Shown here: positions 1-59,818 of the stretch, one piece after another
Layout of the letters: each line of letters begins with the position of its first letter
Position numbering within the stretch: position 1 is the first letter of the stretch
Assembly (NCBI GenBank): GCA_020852965.1
Contig: JADYZV010000041.1
Span: forward strand, 1-64,000
Source: Pirellulaceae bacterium
GTDB taxonomy: Bacteria; Planctomycetota; Planctomycetia; Pirellulales; Pirellulaceae
Length of the DNA stretch: 64,000 nucleotides
Reading direction: 5' to 3'
Position numbers and translations under genes: made by a program
Notes under the pieces: generated by a model
Database searches by the model: none
Told to the model about the DNA's origin: nothing
The model's input: the letters and a program-made list of their open reading frames with translations, nothing else

Positions 1-177
1 GTTCTTAGTTCTTGGTTCTTGGTTCTTAGTTCTTGGTTCTTGGTTCTTGGTTCTTGGTTCTTGGTTCTTGGTTCTTGGTTCTTGGTTCTTGGTTCTTGGT
101 TCTTGGTTCTTGGTTCTTGGTTCTTGGTGCTTGGTGCTTGGTGCTTGGTGCTTGGTTCTTGGTTCTTGGTTCTTGGT
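1..177. repeat. Heptanucleotide tandem repeat (TTCTTGG)n
   Basis: About 25 head-to-tail copies of a 7-base unit, mostly GTTCTTG, with scattered GTTCTTA variants and a run of four GTGCTTG variants near 126-156. It continues to the left window edge, so its full length is unknown. It lies 56 bases beyond the carA stop codon. The same unit occurs at 56967-57008. A 7-base unit would shift frame if translated; nothing suggests it is coding here. Confidence 0.95.
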
Positions 178-9642: not shown

Positions 9643-9766
9643 CTAGTGCTTCAACCAGATTTAAAAGTGGGGTAGTGGGCGAGGATACGAGTCCGTTTGA
9701 TTCGTAATACGTAGGGGACTCGTAACCTCGTCCACTACCCTAAATTAAATATGGACTGAGCACTAG
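9643..9766. mobile_element. MITE-like element A, copy 1 (CTAGTGCTT ends)
   Basis: 124 bases, almost a full palindrome. The ends read CTAGTGCTTCAACCA and, reversed, CTAGTGCTCAGTCCA. Inside them are GGGTAGTGG(G/A)CGAGG and ACGAGTCC arms in inverted orientation. Related full-length copies lie at 26811-26944 and 39517-39657. The right end supplies the TAG stop codon (9763-9765) of the adjacent gene. No transposase is encoded. Confidence 0.8.
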
Positions 9767-10329
9767 CAGCGATCGAGCGTCAATCGCTTGCGCCACTGTG
9801 GGGCGATGCTGGGGTAGTTTCCGTAAAAGCGTTTGATATAGTGCCGCCCCTTCCAATGCAAACAGTGGGCTTGCCAGCCCCAGCGCTCGAGCAAGCGATG
9901 GCTGATACGCGCGTTGGCGACGTGGCACACCATCGCGCTCGTCTGTTTCAATCTCGCGATCTCGTCGAGCACCAGGGTGGCCGCGTAGCAGGTCGTGGGC
10001 GACGTGCCTTTTCCCGAGCGCACGTACGACAACGTCAAGAAGCCACCTTCCGCGCCGGCTTGGTGATAGAACAGTTCGCAGCGATCGCTGGCCACGGGAC
10101 GCAGCAGCGCATCCCACTTGGCCTGGAGCACATTCCCAGTGTAGGGCCACCAGCGTCCGTAGACGGCCTGCAGTCGCCCAGCCTGCGTGACAATCCGCCC
10201 ACTTCGCCGAACGCGCAGTAGCTCGGCTGACGCGGCCACATCGGTCACCGGGGAAAGCCCCCAGCCGGCCAGTCCAGCGGCTAATGACCAGCGATTCCCA
10301 AGGCCTGTTTGATCAATCGCCAAATCCAT
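9763..10329 (-). CDS. GNAT-like conserved protein, 3' end cut by a repeat element
   Basis: 188 residues from the ATG at 10329, which overlaps the prepilin peptidase gene by 49 bases. A GTG at 10248 or 10239 would avoid the overlap and may be the true start. The C-terminal half resembles an N-acetyltransferase (GNAT) fold: LTLSYVRSGKGTSP, ATLVLDEIARLKQT, VCHVANARISHRLLERWGW, then GRHYIKRFYGNYP. The last codons read directly into the end of MITE-like element A, whose CTAG end gives the TAG stop, so the original C-terminus may be altered. The position just after the peptidase gene on the same strand suggests cotranscription. The substrate is unknown. Confidence 0.65.
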   Translation of the reverse strand: MDLAIDQTGLGNRWSLAAGLAGWGLSPVTDVAASAELLRVRRSGRIVTQAGRLQAVYGRWWPYTGNVLQAKWDALLRPVASDRCELFYHQAGAEGGFLTLSYVRSGKGTSPTTCYAATLVLDEIARLKQTSAMVCHVANARISHRLLERWGWQAHCLHWKGRHYIKRFYGNYPSIAPQWRKRLTLDRC

Positions 10330-18358: not shown

Positions 18359-19702
18359 ATGCTTGCCAGCACTACCCGAAATCCTCTCACAATGAAAATC
18401 CCCCAACTCGGTCAAGGATGGCCATTCATGCTTGCTACTTCCCTACCAGCCTCCACGTCAGCGACAGTCCCTTTTCATGTGGCCCGAAGCTCCGCGTCGG
18501 ATGAAACGAACTCACCCACAGATGTAACTCACGCACCTCCAGTTCTACCCGTGCCACTGCTGGATGTTAGTCGAGGAAACAACCCGCTGCGCAACGAGAT
18601 CCTGCAGGCGCTAGCCGATGTTTATGATAGCGGACGTTTCTTGCACGGCCCCCAAGTTACTCTGCTGGAAGAACGAGTCGCGCGCATCAGCAATACCAAA
18701 CATGCGGTGGGCTGCGCTTCCGGGAGCGACGCCCTACTGCTCGCCTTGATGGCTCTGGGAATCGGACCTGGAGATGAAGTGATCGTCCCCAGCTTCACCT
18801 TCTTCGCCACCGCCAGTTGCGTGCATCGACTGGGCGCAAAGATCGTGTTTGCCGACATCGATCCGCGCACCTACAACATCGATCCGATCGAAATCCAAGC
18901 CAACATTACCGATCGCACGCGCGCGATCATCCCCGTTCACCTGTTCGGACAAGCGGCCGCGATGGACGCCATTTGCAATGTAGCCGATGGATGCGACATC
19001 CCGGTCATCGAAGATTGTGCACAAGCCATCGGGGGCGCATACCATGGTCGCCCGCTCGGGAGCTGGGGACAGATGAGCTGCACCAGCTTTTACCCAACCA
19101 AGAACCTGGGCGGCTTAGGTGATGGAGGTATGCTGACGCTCAGCAGCGACATCCTGGCTGATCGCCTACGACTGTTGGCCGGTCATGGCATGCGCCCGCG
19201 CTACCACCACTCCGCAGTTGGCATCAACAGCCGGCTCGATACACTGCAAGCCGCCGCGCTACTTGTCAAAATTCAGTACCTGCAGCAATATACCACCGCG
19301 CGACAAGAAAACGCGCAATGCTACTTCGAACTGTTTCAACAAGCAGGCCTGGCAGACGTGCGCGGCGATTGTGCGGTCGGCCTTCCCTATCACGATCCTG
19401 CCGCATTCCATGTTTGGAATCAGTTCAGTTTGCGCATTGGCAATGGTCAGCGCGATCATTTGCGCAGCTACCTTCAACAGCGCAATATCGGTTCGGAAAT
19501 CTATTACCCGATCCCCCTGCATCAACAAGTCTGTTTCCGCGATTGCGGCTACGCCGACGGCAGCCTGCCTCACACCGAACGAGCGGCGGCCGAAATACTG
19601 CATCTACCGATCTATCCAGAGCTGACCCGCATCGAGCAGGAGCAAGTCGTCGCAGCCATCGCCAGCTACTATCGCGAAGCCTACCGAAGCAAAGCCTCTT
19701 AG
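18359..19702 (+). CDS. DegT/DnrJ/EryC1/StrS family sugar aminotransferase
   Basis: PLP-dependent enzyme that usually aminates keto sugars for polysaccharides or glycans. The 447-residue frame includes about 60 N-terminal residues with no family resemblance; homology begins at VPLLDVSRGNNPLRNEI (about residue 65), where a GTG at 18551 could be an alternative start. Family motifs include HAVGCASGSDALLLAL, GDEVIVPSFTFFATA, IVFADIDPRTYNID, IIPVHLFGQAA, VIEDCAQAIG, and the PLP-lysine region SFYPTKNLGGLGDGG. C-terminal IGSEIYYPIPLHQQVCF is typical. It stands alone downstream of topA, so its pathway cannot be read from context. Confidence 0.92.
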   Translation: MLASTTRNPLTMKIPQLGQGWPFMLATSLPASTSATVPFHVARSSASDETNSPTDVTHAPPVLPVPLLDVSRGNNPLRNEILQALADVYDSGRFLHGPQVTLLEERVARISNTKHAVGCASGSDALLLALMALGIGPGDEVIVPSFTFFATASCVHRLGAKIVFADIDPRTYNIDPIEIQANITDRTRAIIPVHLFGQAAAMDAICNVADGCDIPVIEDCAQAIGGAYHGRPLGSWGQMSCTSFYPTKNLGGLGDGGMLTLSSDILADRLRLLAGHGMRPRYHHSAVGINSRLDTLQAAALLVKIQYLQQYTTARQENAQCYFELFQQAGLADVRGDCAVGLPYHDPAAFHVWNQFSLRIGNGQRDHLRSYLQQRNIGSEIYYPIPLHQQVCFRDCGYADGSLPHTERAAAEILHLPIYPELTRIEQEQVVAAIASYYREAYRSKAS

Positions 19703-26810: not shown

Positions 26811-26944
26811 CTAGTGCTTCGACCATTTTTAATCTTAGGGTTTGGTGTAGTGGACGAGGCCCGCGAGTCCCTGGCACCTACTAAGACGAAAGGACTCGCG
26901 GGCCTCGTCCACTACCCCAAGTTCGAGTGTGGGCAAAGCACTCG
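26811..26944. mobile_element. MITE-like element A, copy 2
   Basis: 134 bases. The left end is CTAGTGCTTCGACCA; the right end, reversed, is CGAGTGCTTTGCCCA. Inside is a perfect inner inverted repeat GTAGTGGACGAGGCCCGCGA with GTCC/GGAC ends. It sits 28 bases upstream of the metal-binding lipoprotein start codon, so it probably lies within or just upstream of that operon's promoter or leader. Confidence 0.85.
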
Positions 26945-29542: not shown

Positions 29543-30850
29543 TTGCTCCAGTTAAAGTTGAATGTCATCGTGATTTCCAAAATTTCAGATTGGTCTTTGC
29601 GCTATGCACGGGCCTCGTTTGCCTTATGGATTGCGTCCAGCCTGGTTGTGTCCTCATTGTTAGCTCAAGACGCAGCCAACTCGACTGCTGCTATCGAGCC
29701 CGCTCCGACGAGTTGGACCAATGACAAGGGGGTTGTCATTGAAGCTGAGTTTGTGAGCATGACCGATGATGCAGTCGTCCTCCGCTTGTCTCGCGACGGA
29801 CGCGAAGCAGCCGTTCCATTGACGAAGCTGAGCATCGAGAGCATCTACCAAGCGGTGCGTTTAGCGAATCCCAAAGAGTTCTCTAAGCCCGTGCCCAAAG
29901 CGGTGGTGAAACCCGAAGGCCCCGAACTGCCAGACCTGCACCTGACCATCGAAGATCTGTTGCAGAATCCCTACAAGGATGGAACTACGATCGAGCAATT
30001 CTTCGAGACCTATGCGCGATTGCCGCAAGAAGGAAATTTCTTCAGCCTGTGGCACTCCCTCCCACCCAAAATGCAAGACGATATCGAAGATTTAATTATC
30101 GCGGGATATAAGCAGTTGGGGCCATCGACGATCAAGCAGATCCGAATCCTGCTCGGCGACGTTAACACCATCGCGATCGACAAGAAGAAGTTCGTGTTGA
30201 GCTTGCCGGAGATTGCAGACAATCCCGCACTACTCATGGGACTCGATCAGGCTTGGCCACTTGTTAGTAGTCTAACCAATGCACTTGCCAAGGACGAGCA
30301 TTGGCAGGCCAGCAACTTCGAAAAGGGGCATGTCACTCGTTGGCTGGCCAACCTCAATTTGGATCTCGCACCGATACTCCTCGCGGCGGATCAAACGATG
30401 AATGATAGCTCAGGGCCCAGTGCTAACCCGCTACTAGCGCCACCGAAATACAACATCATCAGCCAAACGGCCGATTCGGCCGAAGTGGAAGTCACTCGTT
30501 TCCCATCCCCACCGGTCAAGACCGCCTATCAAAAAATAGGCAATATCTGGATCGATGTGAAAGCTATGAATGCGTTGCGCCATGCCGTGGACGACGCCAA
30601 AGAGCAAATGGCACAAGGCGGCGAACAAGCAGTAGCTGCCATTCGCGGCAGCTTGAGCGGAATTATCGCCGCCGTTGGTGGCTTGGCTCGCGCTGAAACC
30701 CAAGAGGATTTCACACAACAGGTCAATCTGCTGCGAACGATGACCACTGGCATGGCACAGTCCATGGGAGGCAATGCGATCCCCGGCGACGCGGGCAACC
30801 TGCCTGCAAGCGGTGGCATGAAAAGCCCCCGTGGTAGCCGCCGCGATTGA
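29543..30850 (+). CDS. Secreted SHD1 (SLA1 homology 1-like) domain protein
   Basis: 435 residues. There is no ATG near the start; TTG at 29543 or GTG at 29570 must be used. A signal sequence follows (FALWIASSLVVSSLLAQ). Residues about 57-105 match the SHD1 module common in planctomycete secreted proteins (WTNDKGVVIEAEFVSMTDDAVVL, VPLTKLS). The rest has no recognised domain but repeats the pattern of helical segments (ENFFSLWHSLPPKMQDDIEDL), and its C-terminus is Gly/Ala/Met-rich. Probably an extracytoplasmic protein of unknown role, cotranscribed with the membrane protein upstream. Confidence 0.8.
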   Translation: MLQLKLNVIVISKISDWSLRYARASFALWIASSLVVSSLLAQDAANSTAAIEPAPTSWTNDKGVVIEAEFVSMTDDAVVLRLSRDGREAAVPLTKLSIESIYQAVRLANPKEFSKPVPKAVVKPEGPELPDLHLTIEDLLQNPYKDGTTIEQFFETYARLPQEGNFFSLWHSLPPKMQDDIEDLIIAGYKQLGPSTIKQIRILLGDVNTIAIDKKKFVLSLPEIADNPALLMGLDQAWPLVSSLTNALAKDEHWQASNFEKGHVTRWLANLNLDLAPILLAADQTMNDSSGPSANPLLAPPKYNIISQTADSAEVEVTRFPSPPVKTAYQKIGNIWIDVKAMNALRHAVDDAKEQMAQGGEQAVAAIRGSLSGIIAAVGGLARAETQEDFTQQVNLLRTMTTGMAQSMGGNAIPGDAGNLPASGGMKSPRGSRRD

Positions 30851-30853
30851 TGA

Positions 30854-30976
30854 GTAGAACAATTGTCCCCAATTGTTTGGGATTTTAACGTGGCTAAGCA
30901 AGCCGAAGCGGTGAACCATTGAGACAAAGGTTCACCACGGCTTCAATTCCCCAAACCATTGAGACAATGGTCCTAC
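30854..30976. repeat. Cluster of three REP-like hairpins
   Basis: Hairpins lie at 30854-30880 (GTAGAACAATTGTCCCC...), 30911-30935 (GTGAACC-ATTGAGACAAA-GGTTCAC) and 30953-30976 (AACCATTGAGACAATGG then TCCTAC). They share the GAGACAA/TTGTCTC loop core with other repeats in the window. The last one supplies the TAG stop codon of the convergent yggS gene. The cluster sits between converging genes and may act as a two-way terminator. Confidence 0.85.
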
Positions 30977-39484: not shown

Positions 39485-39516
39485 TCCAATGTGGCTCGAC
39501 GCTCCGCGTCGCTAAT

Positions 39517-39657
39517 CTAGTGGTTTGTCAATGTTAAGACTTAGTGTTGATAGTAGTCGACGAGGCCCGCGAGTCTCTAATGCCTAGCGCCTAACGAATC
39601 GCACCGACTCACGCGACTCGTCCACTACCCTAAAATGATTCCTTGACAAAGCACTAG
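39517..39657. mobile_element. MITE-like element A, copy 3
   Basis: 141 bases with the best terminal repeats of the family: CTAGTGGTTTGTCAA on the left and, reversed, CTAGTGCTTTGTCAA on the right (14 of 15 identical). The inner arms are GTAGTCGACGAGGCCCGCGAGTC and, reversed, GTAGTGGACGAGTCGCG. It lies between the DUF1080 and isomerase genes, 33 bases past the former. Confidence 0.85.
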
Positions 39658-45380: not shown

Positions 45381-45431
45381 TTTGAGGAGCATTCCGACGG
45401 CGGAGCGTCGGGCCACATTTTGGCTTGGACG

Positions 45432-48956: not shown

Positions 48957-49071
48957 GTGACAACTGCGTTTGACAATATTGGGGACTTGATCGTACTGAC
49001 ACGTCGACAACGTGGACGGTGCAACCGGACCGTTTCACACCATACTCGATGGATGCCGTGTGAACTCGCAA
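48957..49071 (-). pseudogene. purN fragment 1 (middle part)
   Basis: The minus strand reads RVHTASIEYGVKRSGCTVHV, then after a frame change QYDQVPNIVKRSCHVK. The intact purN at 52463-53083 has [20 protein letters not shown] and [15 protein letters not shown]. The DNA aligns with 52607-52715 almost without gaps. A frameshift after VVD and loss of both flanks make it a relic. Beyond it (48817-48957) the frame continues into an unrelated Pro/Glu/Ala-rich tail. The rest of the 712-base gap from 48538 to 49249 holds only the 57-base repeats and the sigma gene promoter. Confidence 0.85.
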
Positions 49072-49249
49072 TTTATAGAGCCAAAGTGTGACTAGTCGGC
49101 TCGATAGTCAAGCCCTCATTCTGTTGTGAAGTGACAATGCGACTTAATTCGATCCATTTTCGGAATATCTTGCAGCAACCACGCATTTGCGGTCACTATA
49201 AGAATAGAGACCTGAATCCGTTTACAACAGTGCTTTTTAGAGGGTGGTG

Positions 49250-52338: not shown

Positions 52339-52458
52339 TAACCCGCAGCGTCAGCAAGGACGTTTGAGTCAGAGTCAAAAATTAAAAGCATGAACTACCT
52401 TGGTTTTTCGCAACCCACTTGCAGTTGCGTCAAACGTCCTTGCTGACGCTGCGGGTTA
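52339..52458. repeat. 29-base perfect inverted repeats, 62-base loop
   Basis: The left arm TAACCCGCAGCGTCAGCAAG plus 9 bases (52339-52367) is exactly matched by the right arm (52430-52458). The right arm lies four bases beyond the purN stop codon, next to a GTAGGCTCGTAA remnant. It lies in a 377-base gene-free stretch (52086-52462), which also has the short direct repeat TTGGCTGCCGCA near 52255 and 52284. Likely a large 3' hairpin or element ends. Confidence 0.85.
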
Positions 52459-52462
52459 CGGT

Positions 52463-53083
52463 TTACGAGCCTACAAACACTCGGCGGTCGGTGACGGTGA
52501 CTCGGCCGGTGGCGATGGCGGCGATGACTTCGGGGTAGAGCTGGCGTTCCAGTTCGCCGATACGCTGCTGCAAATCTTGTGGTGAGTCGCTATCTAAAAC
52601 CGGGCAACTGCGCTGGGCGATGATGGGGCCGTGATCGTACTGGTTATCGACAAAGTGGACGGTGCAGCCGGATAACTTTACACCATATTCAATAGCTGCC
52701 GTGTGAACTCGTAGACCGTAGTAGCCCTGGCCACTGAAGGCAGGGATCAAGGCGGGGTGGATGTTGATGACGCGATTGGCAAAGTCGTCGGGGATGCCCA
52801 GATGTTCTAAGTAGCCTCCCATCACTACCAACTGCACATCGTGCTTGCGGCACAATCCGAAGATCTGCTGGCTGTGAGCCTGCTGATCGGTGAAGTTCTT
52901 ACGGGCGACGACTTCGGTCGGGATCGAGGCTTGTTCGGCATGGCGCAAGCCGCCGGCTTTGGGATTGCTGCTGATCACCAGTGCAAAGTCAATTAGCAAT
53001 TCGCCACGTCGCTGGTACTCGATCAAATTTGCCAACGTGGAACCCGAGCCGGAGATGAGTACGGCTACGCGCAGTCGCGTCAT
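52463..53083 (-). CDS. purN: Phosphoribosylglycinamide formyltransferase 1
   Basis: Third step of purine synthesis, transferring formyl from 10-formyl-THF to GAR. 206 residues. The motifs are [20 protein letters not shown] (substrate loop), [28 protein letters not shown] (catalytic Asn and His), and the catalytic Asp region [20 protein letters not shown] (split). The last codons and stop (GTA GGC TCG TAA) are identical to the start of the GTAGGCTCGTAA repeat family, so the C-terminus appears to have been replaced by a repeat. The start overlaps the ileS stop by four bases (ATGA), so the genes are coupled. Confidence 0.96.
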
Positions 53084-56718: not shown

Positions 56719-56850
56719 TTAGGCTGAATTTGCCTATGCATGCGCGGTCGATGAGGGTGACGCAGTGGGTGGCGATGGCGGCGATCACTTCGGGATGTAG
56801 CTTGAGTTCCAACTCGCCGACGCGCGGCTGCAAGTCTTGCGTCGGGATTC
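56719..56850 (-). pseudogene. purN fragment 2 (C-terminal part)
   Basis: The minus strand reads [20 protein letters not shown] then CVTLIDRACIGKFSLK and a stop. The intact purN has [20 protein letters not shown] then [13 protein letters not shown]. The DNA aligns without gaps to 52480-52590 at a constant offset of 4260 bases. The match ends just where the repeat-derived end of purN begins, so this copy may show the original C-terminus. It lies 100 bases upstream of the ileS start. Confidence 0.88.
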
Positions 56851-56966: not shown

Positions 56967-57008
56967 GTTCTTAGTTCTTAGTTCTTAGTTCTTAGTTCTT
57001 AGTTCTTA
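56967..57008. repeat. Heptanucleotide repeat (GTTCTTA)6
   Basis: Six perfect copies of the same 7-base class as the repeat at 1-177. The MFS gene's stop codon (56999-57001, minus strand TAA) lies inside it. The repeat directly adjoins a copy of the GTAGTGGACGAGG palindrome at 57007-57070. Confidence 0.92.
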
Positions 57009-58339
57009 GTGGACGAAGTTCGGAGTCCGTTTGGTGGGATGCGCTCGGGACTCGGTACCTCGTCCACTACGGGAAGTTCGCGCCACAGCAACATAAATAG
57101 CAGCAAACCGACCATCGGAGACCAACCGACCAGCATGATCCCCATATCAAACGAACCGGTGCGATCGACGGCCTCGCCAAACACGGGTTGCATGGGGGAC
57201 GAGGCCATCCAACCGATGAATGCCAGCACCCCCGTCAGCTTGCCCATGTGCCGCTGACTCAATTCTTGCGTGAATGAGTAGTAGCAGGGAAATACCCCGA
57301 GCGTTCCGGCCGCCACCAACAACAGCACTCCCAGCAGCGGCCAGCCCGCCGGCAACGCAGAGGCCACGGTGGTCAGGGCGGCCAATACTGAGCATCCGAA
57401 GAACACCATTAAGCGACTGCGATGCACGTCCCAACCTCGCCTGACTAGCCATAGCCCCACAATGCCAGCCAGAATGCAACCCACGTCGGTGGCGATAAAG
57501 TAGACCGAATTGAAGTACAGCGCATACGTTTCACTGTAGCCGCGGCCCGACTGTAGGAACTTTGGCAGCCAGTGCCGAATTAGTTGCCACGAGGTGTTGA
57601 TCGAGATGACCATCATGGCCAGCGCCCAAAAGCGACGGTCAGTGATGAAGTTCGACAGCCACTGCCATGGTCGCTCGTAGGCCTCGTTCGAACGGTCGAT
57701 ATCTAAATCACCACGTCGAATGATCGAAAACCACACTACGGCCCAGACCAATCCCACACCACCGATTACAAAGAAAGGTGAGCGCCAAGCATCGTCTGCT
57801 TCATTGCCAGTCACGATCACGCGGATGATGAGCGGCGTGAGAATAGCTCCCAAGGAAGCGCCGCTTTGCAATACGCTGTTGCCCATCACGCGACCGCCGC
57901 GCGTCATGATCGCCTGCGTCACGATCAATGCACACGGCCAGTGTCCCGACTCGAAGAACCCCAGCAGTCCACGGCAAACTAGCAGCGAAATGTAGCCGTG
58001 AGTCAAGCCAGTGGCGATGCCGACGGCCGACCATGCGATCAGCACCGCTGGATAGAGCAGGCGTACAGACATACGATCCGCCAACATACCGAAAAATAGC
58101 GAGCCGACGGCGAAGGCGATCCCAAATACGAGCTCCAGGTAACCATACTGAGCGTTGCTCATGTCGAACTGCTCTGTGATCCGCACCGACAGATTCGACA
58201 GCGTCTGCCGATCCATGTAGTTGATCATCGTTGCCAGCAGCAATAGGATACTGACCCAACTCTTCCACGCTGTCGAGCGTTGCCTGCTACCTGTCACTAG
58301 GGATACTTTCAGAGAGTTCGATTGTAGTGGACCAAGCAA
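56999..58339 (-). CDS. Major facilitator (ACS-type) transporter with repeat-derived C-terminus
   Basis: 446 residues with 12 membrane helices. The N-terminal half has MINYMDRQTLSNL, FGMLADRMSVR (the MFS loop 2-3 motif) and GFFESGHWPCALIV, as in hexuronate/sialate-type anion:cation symporters. It probably imports a sugar acid or similar organic anion. After the last helix (LLLFMLLWRELPVV) the final ~22 residues (DEVPSPERIPPNGLRTSSTK) are encoded by a palindromic element and the stop lies in a heptanucleotide repeat, so this tail is not ancestral. It is the last gene of a cluster with a Tat protein, creatininase and isomerase. Confidence 0.9.
   Translation of the reverse strand: MLGPLQSNSLKVSLVTGSRQRSTAWKSWVSILLLLATMINYMDRQTLSNLSVRITEQFDMSNAQYGYLELVFGIAFAVGSLFFGMLADRMSVRLLYPAVLIAWSAVGIATGLTHGYISLLVCRGLLGFFESGHWPCALIVTQAIMTRGGRVMGNSVLQSGASLGAILTPLIIRVIVTGNEADDAWRSPFFVIGGVGLVWAVVWFSIIRRGDLDIDRSNEAYERPWQWLSNFITDRRFWALAMMVISINTSWQLIRHWLPKFLQSGRGYSETYALYFNSVYFIATDVGCILAGIVGLWLVRRGWDVHRSRLMVFFGCSVLAALTTVASALPAGWPLLGVLLLVAAGTLGVFPCYYSFTQELSQRHMGKLTGVLAFIGWMASSPMQPVFGEAVDRTGSFDMGIMLVGWSPMVGLLLFMLLWRELPVVDEVPSPERIPPNGLRTSSTKN
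57007..57070. repeat. Core palindrome of element A inside the MFS gene end
   Basis: TAGTGGACGAAGTTCGGAGTCC at the left and, reversed, GTAGTGGACGAGGTACCGAGTCC at the right, with a 20-base centre. It matches the inner arms of the CTAGTGCTT elements but lacks the outer ends. It encodes the last residues of the MFS protein. Confidence 0.85.
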
Positions 58340-58398: not shown

Positions 58399-58552
58399 TA
58401 TTAACCACGAAGCACACGAAAAAACACTGCTGGCGTTCTGGGTGGTCCAGCAATGCGGCAATGAGCAATGCGGAACTGTTCAAAAGTGAAAAGTGCAAAT
58501 CTATGGAAGTGAAATCCGAGGTTTGTAACGAGCGATACAACCGAATCGTCCA

Positions 58553-59818
58553 CTACCCCTCGGGCCAGAACATCGATTCTTCAGCCGGAGCATAAGAGAT
58601 GTTCATATCGGGCGTAGCATAAGGCGTTTCATCGGCAAACAACGATTCGACGCCACCGATGACCATGCCCGACGTGAGCAGCGTGCGTTCTATGGGATAG
58701 TTGGTCTGTCCCTGGAGAATCATCTGCTCGATGTGGTAAGTCAGCGGGTTGAAGAAATCGGCGGTGGTGGCGCTTGAGCCTGGCATAGGAAGATACATCT
58801 GGCAACCGACCGTCTGCCCGTTTTTCAAGCGACCGGCGTAGTTGAAATCGCGAATACCGGTCATGAAGACAGCGGTATGAAAACCGTCCAAATGCTCAAT
58901 CAAGTAGCCGGTCGTCTCGGGCAGCACCTGCTTAGCCCACTCGTACGTCACGGGCGCGGACGGGTAGCCTGTATCGACGGGCAAATTGTGGCTGCGGCAC
59001 AAGGCGGAGACGAACAACTCTCGCGTAGTTTGTCGCTCGGGTTGTTCGAGCAGTGCAAACAGCTTCTCGTTGCGAGCGGCATGGACGGAGCGAATGCCCA
59101 CTTCGCCTCCCTGCCGACGTTCCGACATGCACTGAGCCGTTTCGAGGGCATGGAAGTCATAACTATCCACGCCACCATAAGCTACGCAAACGCTCTCTTT
59201 CATTGGAGTTCCCAGTGGCAATTCGTAATCGGGCAATCGCCAGGTGACCGGTAGCGAAGAACCGGCATAGAACGGGAATTTGAGTCGTCGAGAATCGTCG
59301 ACCATCTCGCGGCATTCTTGCCAACTGGTCGACAAGTGCTTGTCGTTAAAGACGGGCACGGAGCGACCGCTAGCTTCGAAGACCTTCACCACTTCCTTGA
59401 ACCAGCGGTAGCGTGGATAGAGTGTCTGTCCACGATCGTTCTTGGGGTAGTTGCCATGTTCGCCGATGATGACCACGCCATCGACGGCCAATTCGGAACC
59501 GCCCAGAGTCAAGGCATCGGCCACGCTAGAATAGAGTTGATGTCCGTAGCGTTCGATTCGTGGTCGCCCCAAATCTTGTTCATGGAACTGCTCGATATAC
59601 ACTCCAGCCACATCGAGCGCCGGTGCGTGCCAGTGGCCCCCCATGGAATACCCCATCGAGAAGCGATCGAGGAAATGCTGTGCGTGCGAATGCAGGTGTA
59701 CCTCGGTCCCGATGAAGGCGATTCGCTTGCGCGGCTCGGCGGCTCGAGCCAGTTTAGACATCGAAGTTAGCGCTAGGCCGGCGGCCAGCGATTGAGTAAA
59801 GCGGCGGCGTGTGATCAA
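58553..59818 (-). CDS. Tat-exported planctomycete protein of unknown function
   Basis: 421 residues from a TTG at 59818 with GGGAGGG just upstream; the frame extends to 59848, into the creatininase gene. The N-terminus ITRRRFTQSLAAGLALTSMS is a twin-arginine signal. The body has KRIAFIGTEVHLHSHAQHFL, GGHWHAPALDVAGVYIEQFH, VDGVVIIGEHGNYPKND, VFNDKHLSTSWQECREMV and YLIEHLDGFHTAVFMTGI. I do not recognise a named family, though it seems recurrent near creatininase-type genes in planctomycetes. The TAG stop codon is the GTAG end of a reverse half copy of element A. Middle gene of the cluster. Confidence 0.8.
   Translation of the reverse strand: MITRRRFTQSLAAGLALTSMSKLARAAEPRKRIAFIGTEVHLHSHAQHFLDRFSMGYSMGGHWHAPALDVAGVYIEQFHEQDLGRPRIERYGHQLYSSVADALTLGGSELAVDGVVIIGEHGNYPKNDRGQTLYPRYRWFKEVVKVFEASGRSVPVFNDKHLSTSWQECREMVDDSRRLKFPFYAGSSLPVTWRLPDYELPLGTPMKESVCVAYGGVDSYDFHALETAQCMSERRQGGEVGIRSVHAARNEKLFALLEQPERQTTRELFVSALCRSHNLPVDTGYPSAPVTYEWAKQVLPETTGYLIEHLDGFHTAVFMTGIRDFNYAGRLKNGQTVGCQMYLPMPGSSATTADFFNPLTYHIEQMILQGQTNYPIERTLLTSGMVIGGVESLFADETPYATPDMNISYAPAEESMFWPEG

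Follow-up and report, generated by a model that had tools for sequence, protein, structure and literature searches.

Stop codons within repeats of a Pirellulaceae bacterium: the clearest excess is at the CTAG ends of a MITE-like element

Introduction

The locus shown above, a palindromic REP array in which the gene yggS comes to its end, raises the question of why a bacterial gene should take its stop codon from repetitive DNA. The situation is not confined to yggS: in the window, that is, the whole stretch of 64,000 nucleotides that was analyzed, four further genes were described as ending in repeats, namely, purN, a "Tat" gene, a "GNAT-like" gene with its stop at 9763, and an MFS gene. The initial annotation assigned these cases to four unrelated repeat types, considered them more than chance, and proposed that such repeats evolved to bring a stop near their edge and thereby to be harmless at gene ends.

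That GTAG termini provide stops is already in print. In the available part of their study, Di Nocera et al. (2013, PMC3733652) report that the termini of GTAG REPs often provide the TAG to flanking open reading frames. For the pneumococcal BOX repeats, the available text of Croucher et al. (2011, PMC3049150) counts 58 genes that overlap BOX, with the repeat encoding the stop in 36, and finds no strong evidence of truncation in these overlaps. The issue is what kind of repeat is involved in the present case, and whether the coincidence of repeat and stop reflects a property of the repeat or of the site where it lies.

Results

Five stop codons in the window

All five stop codons are found in the window sequence where the initial annotation had placed them, but they have no single cause in common (Table 1). 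The yggS stop (TAG, 30973-30975, minus strand) belongs to the right head of the REP array (30973-30976; head sequence GTAGGACC), and the left head (30854-30857) begins 3 nt past the TGA (30848-30850) of the convergent neighbor. The repeats that hold the stops of yggS, purN, and the Tat gene are all GTAG-headed, so that the types are not all unrelated, as had been supposed. The stop of the gene at 9763-10329 (9763-9765, minus strand) does lie in repeat DNA, but its source is the right-hand CTAG of a MITE-like element rather than a REP head, the REP heads being located further in. The designations "GNAT-like" (the 9763 gene) and "Tat" come from the initial annotation; no Pfam or NCBIfam family matches either protein. 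Two purN-like fragments that flank the intact purN are, perhaps, decayed duplicates.

Table 1. Repeats and related features of the window
Feature	Positions	Strand	Remarks
Heptamer array (GTTCTTG/GTTCTTA)	1..175		
MITE-like element	9643..9766	.	CTAG to CTAG; inner GTAG REP dimer
Family B repeats (AATGTGGCCCGACGCTCCGCCGTCGG)	18475..18502; 39487..39514; 45393..45420		
MITE-like element	26811..26944	.	in a divergent gap; CTAG on the left, decayed to CTCG on the right
REP array, outward GTAG heads	30854..30976	.	palindromic; fills the gap between two convergent genes
MITE-like element	39517..39657	.	CTAG at both ends; between same-strand genes
purN-like fragments	48961..49080; 56741..56842		DNA repeats; protein identity 62% and 68%
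Family C repeat (GTAGGCTCGTAA...)	52457..52474	-	inner TAA 52463-52465 is the purN stop
Heptamer array (GTTCTTA on the plus strand; GTTCTTG/GTTCTTA type)	56967..57008	.	holds the MFS stop, TAA 56999-57001, minus strand
Family A dimer (GTAG)	57006..57072	.	MFS gene reads through
Family A GTAG head (GTAGTGGACGA)	58534..58556	-	TAG 58553-58555 is the stop of the Tat gene

Relatives of the five genes were searched in 15 genomes of the genus, the source genome included, and were left uncounted when cut by a contig end or lacking a match above 45% identity. The length differences are 0 to +4 residues for yggS (13 relatives compared), -1 to +7 for purN (13 relatives), and -1 to +1 for the Tat gene (7 usable relatives); of 12 relatives of the 9763 gene, nine end no more than 3 residues away, and the other three are longer by 8, 19, and 26 residues. 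The MFS protein, 11 to 21 residues longer than five close relatives with a usable end, is the only case in the window where the repeat altered the protein. Because four of the five window proteins end where most of their relatives end, insertion at gene ends looks harmless, these four repeats being located at or near a native end.

Gene ends compared with random placement

For a broader view, we analyzed 2,237,003 of the 8,366,829 bases of the genome (27%; 46 contigs), in which a purpose-made Markov-type gene caller identified 1356 genes; the 9763 gene escaped this simple caller. Repeat copies that overlapped coding sequence by more than 6 bases (strict rule) or more than 15 bases (loose rule) were dropped. 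Altogether, 33 (strict) or 39 (loose) gene ends lie inside copies of eight repeat sets, against summed random-placement means of about 10 and 21 (Table 2). Thus, the coincidence is more than chance overall in this sample, as had been claimed, but not for sets D, E, and F, which show no excess of stop codons over random placement in the 2.24 Mb. The excess is found in the MITE set and set B, in sets A and C under one overlap rule each, and, slightly, in the heptamer set under both. The yggS-type repeat, of which the sample holds 8 stems, 7 with GTAG, is absent from the eight sets.

Table 2. Gene ends inside repeat copies, out of all copies retained, in the 2.24-Mb sample
Repeat set	Strict	Random mean	Loose	Random mean	Simulations reaching the count
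MITE	13/69	1.5	13/70	3.5	
A outside MITEs	4/73	1.4	4/73	3.1	1/100 (strict); 36/100 (loose)
B	9/110	2.4	9/110	4.5	
C	1/33	0.8	6/38	1.6	1/100 (loose)
D	1/33	0.7	1/33	1.6	
E	0/44	0.9	0/44	1.9	
F	2/73	1.6	2/73	3.1	
Heptamer	3/32	0.7	4/34	1.3	

The families also differ in arrangement. Family B forms mostly head-to-tail repeats with a spacing of about 30-50 nt, and of 46 classified family C copies, 23 are located between convergent genes, though gaps of this kind make up 15% of the intergenic length.

GTAG heads are not an enriched source of stops

Family A was sought without its head, and each base of the GTAG is nevertheless kept in at least 94 of 100 copies; in a looser search, 158 of 296 cores begin with GTAGT. 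A count over the entire genome gives 555 occurrences of the family A sequence GTAGTGGACGAG and 3 when the sequence is read backward. Family A consists of ordinary GTAG REPs, with the GTAG head, palindrome, hundreds of copies, and outward-headed dimers that the available part of PMC3733652 describes for such elements. The genome has 7 matches to Y1-type transposases, and a family A remnant adjoins one of these seven loci; at one locus (L002, 1875-1940), a MITE remnant with a GTAG head is located just upstream of an IS200/IS605-type transposase gene.

If repeats carried an edge stop as an evolved feature, the TAG contained in both GTAG heads and CTAG ends would be its vehicle, and the excess of the MITE set, set B and, under one rule each, sets A or C over random placement would be its trace. 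For REP heads, however, this idea of the initial annotation fails the comparison with the same motif outside repeats: of 173 intergenic GTAG sites with a hairpin behind them, 7 are stop codons, and of 3218 without a hairpin, 187 are. Hairpin GTAG being no more often a stop than hairpin-free GTAG, we rejected GTAG heads as an enriched source of stops, even though the count for family A outside MITEs is nominally raised under one of the two overlap rules. It seems, rather, that single GTAG REPs would supply stops mostly by lying close behind genes and starting with GTAG. Furthermore, according to the available part of PMC3733652, the GTAG has another role, as the conserved REP head and the motif cleaved by RAYT in E. 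coli. Considering also the lack of excess in sets D, E, and F and the TAG already present in joined flanks (see below), it is very improbable that unrelated repeats generally bring a stop as an evolved feature.

A MITE-like element with some of its ends on stop codons

Measured from the heads of family A, gene ends pile up elsewhere than on the head itself: the TAG of the head ends 3 genes, whereas 9 genes end 36 nt before the head and 4 end 29 nt before it. From this displaced peak and the sequences found there, a longer element was recognized, with inverted ends CTAGTGCTTCGACC or CTAGTGGTCTGTCA. It is a MITE-like shell about 130 bp in length, bounded by inverted CTAGTGCTTC(A/G)ACC sequences, that encloses a REP dimer. 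In the 2.24-Mb sample, a profile of these ends recovered 121 outer ends and a looser profile 134, of which 67 read CTAG and the remainder are mostly one base off. The elements with both ends (n=36) span 50-171 bp, most of them 129-139. The presence of TA or CTAG at both ends fits a target duplication, with nothing duplicated outside the CTAG in these 36 elements; alternatively, the CTAG may belong to the inverted repeat and not be a duplicated target.

In 17 of the 134 MITE ends, the terminal TA doubles as the TA of the stop codon in the gene that reads inward, and at every other offset from -40 to +40, there are between 0 and 2 gene ends. The four letters of the end at these 17 stops are CTAG in 11 cases, GTAG in 4, ATAG in 1, and CTAA in 1. 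An unguided count over 1355 stops yielded, as the commonest 9-mer, CTAGTGCTT, at 9 stops. The clearest excess of stops in repeats is that of this element with CTAG ends, and its sample counts do not include the 9763 gene, which the gene caller missed.

Noncoding MITE ends that keep the TA lie on stops in 17 of 84 cases, against 112 of 2560 element-free intergenic CTAG (4.4%), a 4.6-fold difference (p=1.2e-7), in a post hoc test whose hypothesis was made and tested on the same sample. Ends placed on stops may keep their TA through selection on the stop, which would inflate the 17/84; when all noncoding MITE ends are taken, 17 of 130 (13%) are on stops (p=6e-5 against the same free CTAG). Within 60 nt of gene ends, the figures become 17/30 and 112/297 (odds ratio 2.2, p=0.035), so that the excess is only about two-fold. 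This last comparison brings out what chance and motif could achieve together: an intergenic CTAG is often a stop, more than a third of the free CTAG 0-60 nt past a stop being the stop itself, and TAG is the commonest stop of the sample (540, against 417 TGA and 399 TAA), so that any CTAG element near gene ends would look alike. The excess that remains, both close to gene ends and overall, makes such an explanation unlikely.

Another possibility is that the elements are retained behind genes for an effect of the hairpin on mRNA 3' ends, in termination or stability, with the stop overlap following from closeness. The head of family B is indeed turned towards the upstream gene (within 60 nt, 61 gene ends on the 5' side against 21 on the 3' side), REPs are mostly downstream of genes according to the available part of PMC3733652, and 1-60 nt past the stop, MITE ends are about twice as frequent as free CTAG (13/84 against 185/2560). 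The gap types occupied by MITEs, however, are convergent in 11 cases, divergent in 17, and same-strand in 37 (7 of 72 unclassified), which matches the expectation from gap length; since gap types follow gap length, there is no general preference of MITEs for the regions behind genes, and the 17 of 65 classified elements that lie between divergent genes are as many as gap length predicts. Moreover, the spike of gene ends is at one exact position, and a hairpin immediately follows a CTAG stop in only 1 of 127 cases. An effect at the mRNA 3' end is, accordingly, an unlikely account of the overlap.

Native stops as probable landing sites

We consider it fairly probable, albeit well short of certain, that the MITE-like element targets CTAG, or another nTAn, and duplicates TA or CTAG, native stops being harmless landing sites. 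Under this scenario, the element would insert at a CTAG or another nTAn site, the insertion would duplicate TA or CTAG, and a ribosome arriving from either side would meet a TAG at the junction. Where the target happened to be the gene's own TAG or TAA, the stop would survive and the protein would be unchanged; because of this, such insertions would persist, even behind rpsB, rplU, ruvA, and nqrF.

Of the stop cases in the sample, 8 have both ends, and joining their flanks yields TAG in 7 and TAT in 1; the 9763 case of the window also yields TAG. The stop, then, probably predates the MITE, and the terminal CTAG is better read as the target. The proteins themselves are consistent with this order of events: three proteins of the sample (RuvA, NqrF, and a member of the RluA family) as well as L21 and RpsB outside it reach the end of the family model or fall 1-2 positions short, although RpsB continues past the model for 48 residues, on which the family-model match is silent. 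In a PcrA-like helicase, the model is matched to position 669 of 725, below the cut-off of the model. No near-identical empty site was found for the MITE.

As for what might move the element, IS630 prefers the TA in CTAG and duplicates TA, and this preference and duplication would explain the ends; the difference is that the present genome has no match to the IS630-type transposase (DDE_3, PF13358) at E<=0.001, and IS630 was, for now, rejected as the mover. There is no transposase between such MITE ends in the 2.24-Mb sample (27% of the genome) or in L370. Two candidate autonomous copies were discarded. One, bounded by inverted ends 1.08 kb apart in L370, is really made up of half a MITE behind rplU, a further gene, and a second MITE. 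The other, a 3180-bp pair on contig C33, contains three genes, of which two have hydrolase-type Pfam matches and the third has none, and no transposase.

The same ends in other loci and genomes

The sequence CTAGTGCTTCRACCA is present in 14 of the 241 family genomes and in 9 of 68 genera, with 36 occurrences in the source genome; by eye, MITE-like copies are found in 8 of these 14 genomes, from 5 genera. Among the further source-genome loci listed, 3 of 4 have a Pfam-matched ORF that ends on the TAG (SCO1-like, RpsB, and L21), and the same is the case for 3 of the 13 MITE-like sites considered in other genomes (SASA, HXXSHH, and Ppnp). Combined, 6/17 compares with 4.4% (p=6e-5) in a replicate that is small and partly sorted by eye. 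Excluded from it were matches judged by eye not to be MITE-like (L341, L343, L344, L345, L349, and L350), loci inside the discovery sample (L342, L355, L358, L361, L367, and L369), and three source-genome places outside the sample that were listed without a locus (C40, C42, and C48); L353 and L354 were treated as one site. That ORF length alone is no proof is illustrated by L343, which is not a MITE and where a 233-codon ORF also ends on its TAG; ORFs of 235 codons (L351) and 334 codons (L365) lack a Pfam match over the cut-off and, hence, did not enter the gene count.

In both Stieleria sedimenti and Rhodopirellula sp. SM50, the CTAG of a MITE remnant coincides with the end of one gene. The nearest remnant-free relative of the Stieleria gene (81% identity) has the same end codon, TAG; of the other relatives compared, one distant protein is 36 residues longer and one is cut. 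Judging from these kinships, the source bacterium is a planctomycete of the family to which Stieleria belongs. The matches listed from a search of genome contigs with a 14-mer of the end were mostly chance-like and from unrelated bacteria, the useful ones being L236 and L259.

The contents of the shell vary. Related CTAGTGCTTC(A/G)ACC ends enclose palindromes of the GTAGTGGACGAG, GTAGAGCGATTGTC, GTAGGCTTCCAGCC, or ACGTGGCTCGACGG kind at a roughly constant length. In the source genome, some shells hold a family A core, as in L361 (134 bp), whereas L355 (134 bp) has the yggS-type palindrome, and the observation extends to the places C11:69265 and C13:37815. In genome G256, a shell of 131 bp (L359) encloses GTAGGCTTCCAGCC, and in G481, shells of 131 bp (L360) and 132 bp (L363) enclose ACGTGGCTCGACGG. 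Short shells without a palindromic core measure 50 bp in the source genome and 92 bp in G508, and two copies are longer (L347, 237 bp; L348, 233 bp) because the palindrome is repeated. In the family A copies of G256, the right end is poor or missing.

Discussion

The element described here resembles several known systems without coinciding with any of them, as far as the available parts of the respective papers allow comparison. Unlike the GTAG REPs of PMC3733652, where the termini themselves supply stops, the excess of stops is found mainly in the longer shell around the dimer, and the hairpin GTAG heads show none. The Pseudomonas composites of TIR and REP that flank transposase genes (PMC3733652) likewise join degenerate GTAG units to unrelated stem-loops in hundreds of copies, whereas here the outer repeats end in CTAG, a comparison made by description only. 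BOX has a different sequence, and a CTAG target is absent from its description in the available text of PMC3049150. MITEPsy1, a 100-bp MITE, inserts after CTAG or YTAA and duplicates the target, but its inverted repeats differ, it has no REP core, and stop-codon sites are not described in the available part of PMC3189936. A literature search turned up no published account of a CTAG MITE at stop codons, which is weak evidence of absence.

More tentatively, we submit that the MITE shell, which measures about 130 bp and is found in several genera of the family, could be a carrier for interchangeable REP dimers whose CTAG target makes native stops a safe harbor; the odds of this extended proposal seem to us slightly unfavorable. 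Should it nevertheless be true, REPs would spread partly as cargo, and the overlap with stops would be a by-product of target choice.

The idea that repeats evolved to bring a stop thus gives way to a simpler rule, whereby a target that contains the stop and is duplicated would allow a damage-free landing. More generally, no function should be claimed for stops in repeats until occurrences of the motif outside repeats have served as a control, given that the effect of GTAG REPs vanishes here under such a comparison. Finally, a shell that encloses different REP dimers offers a clue to the possible movement of REP families in these bacteria.
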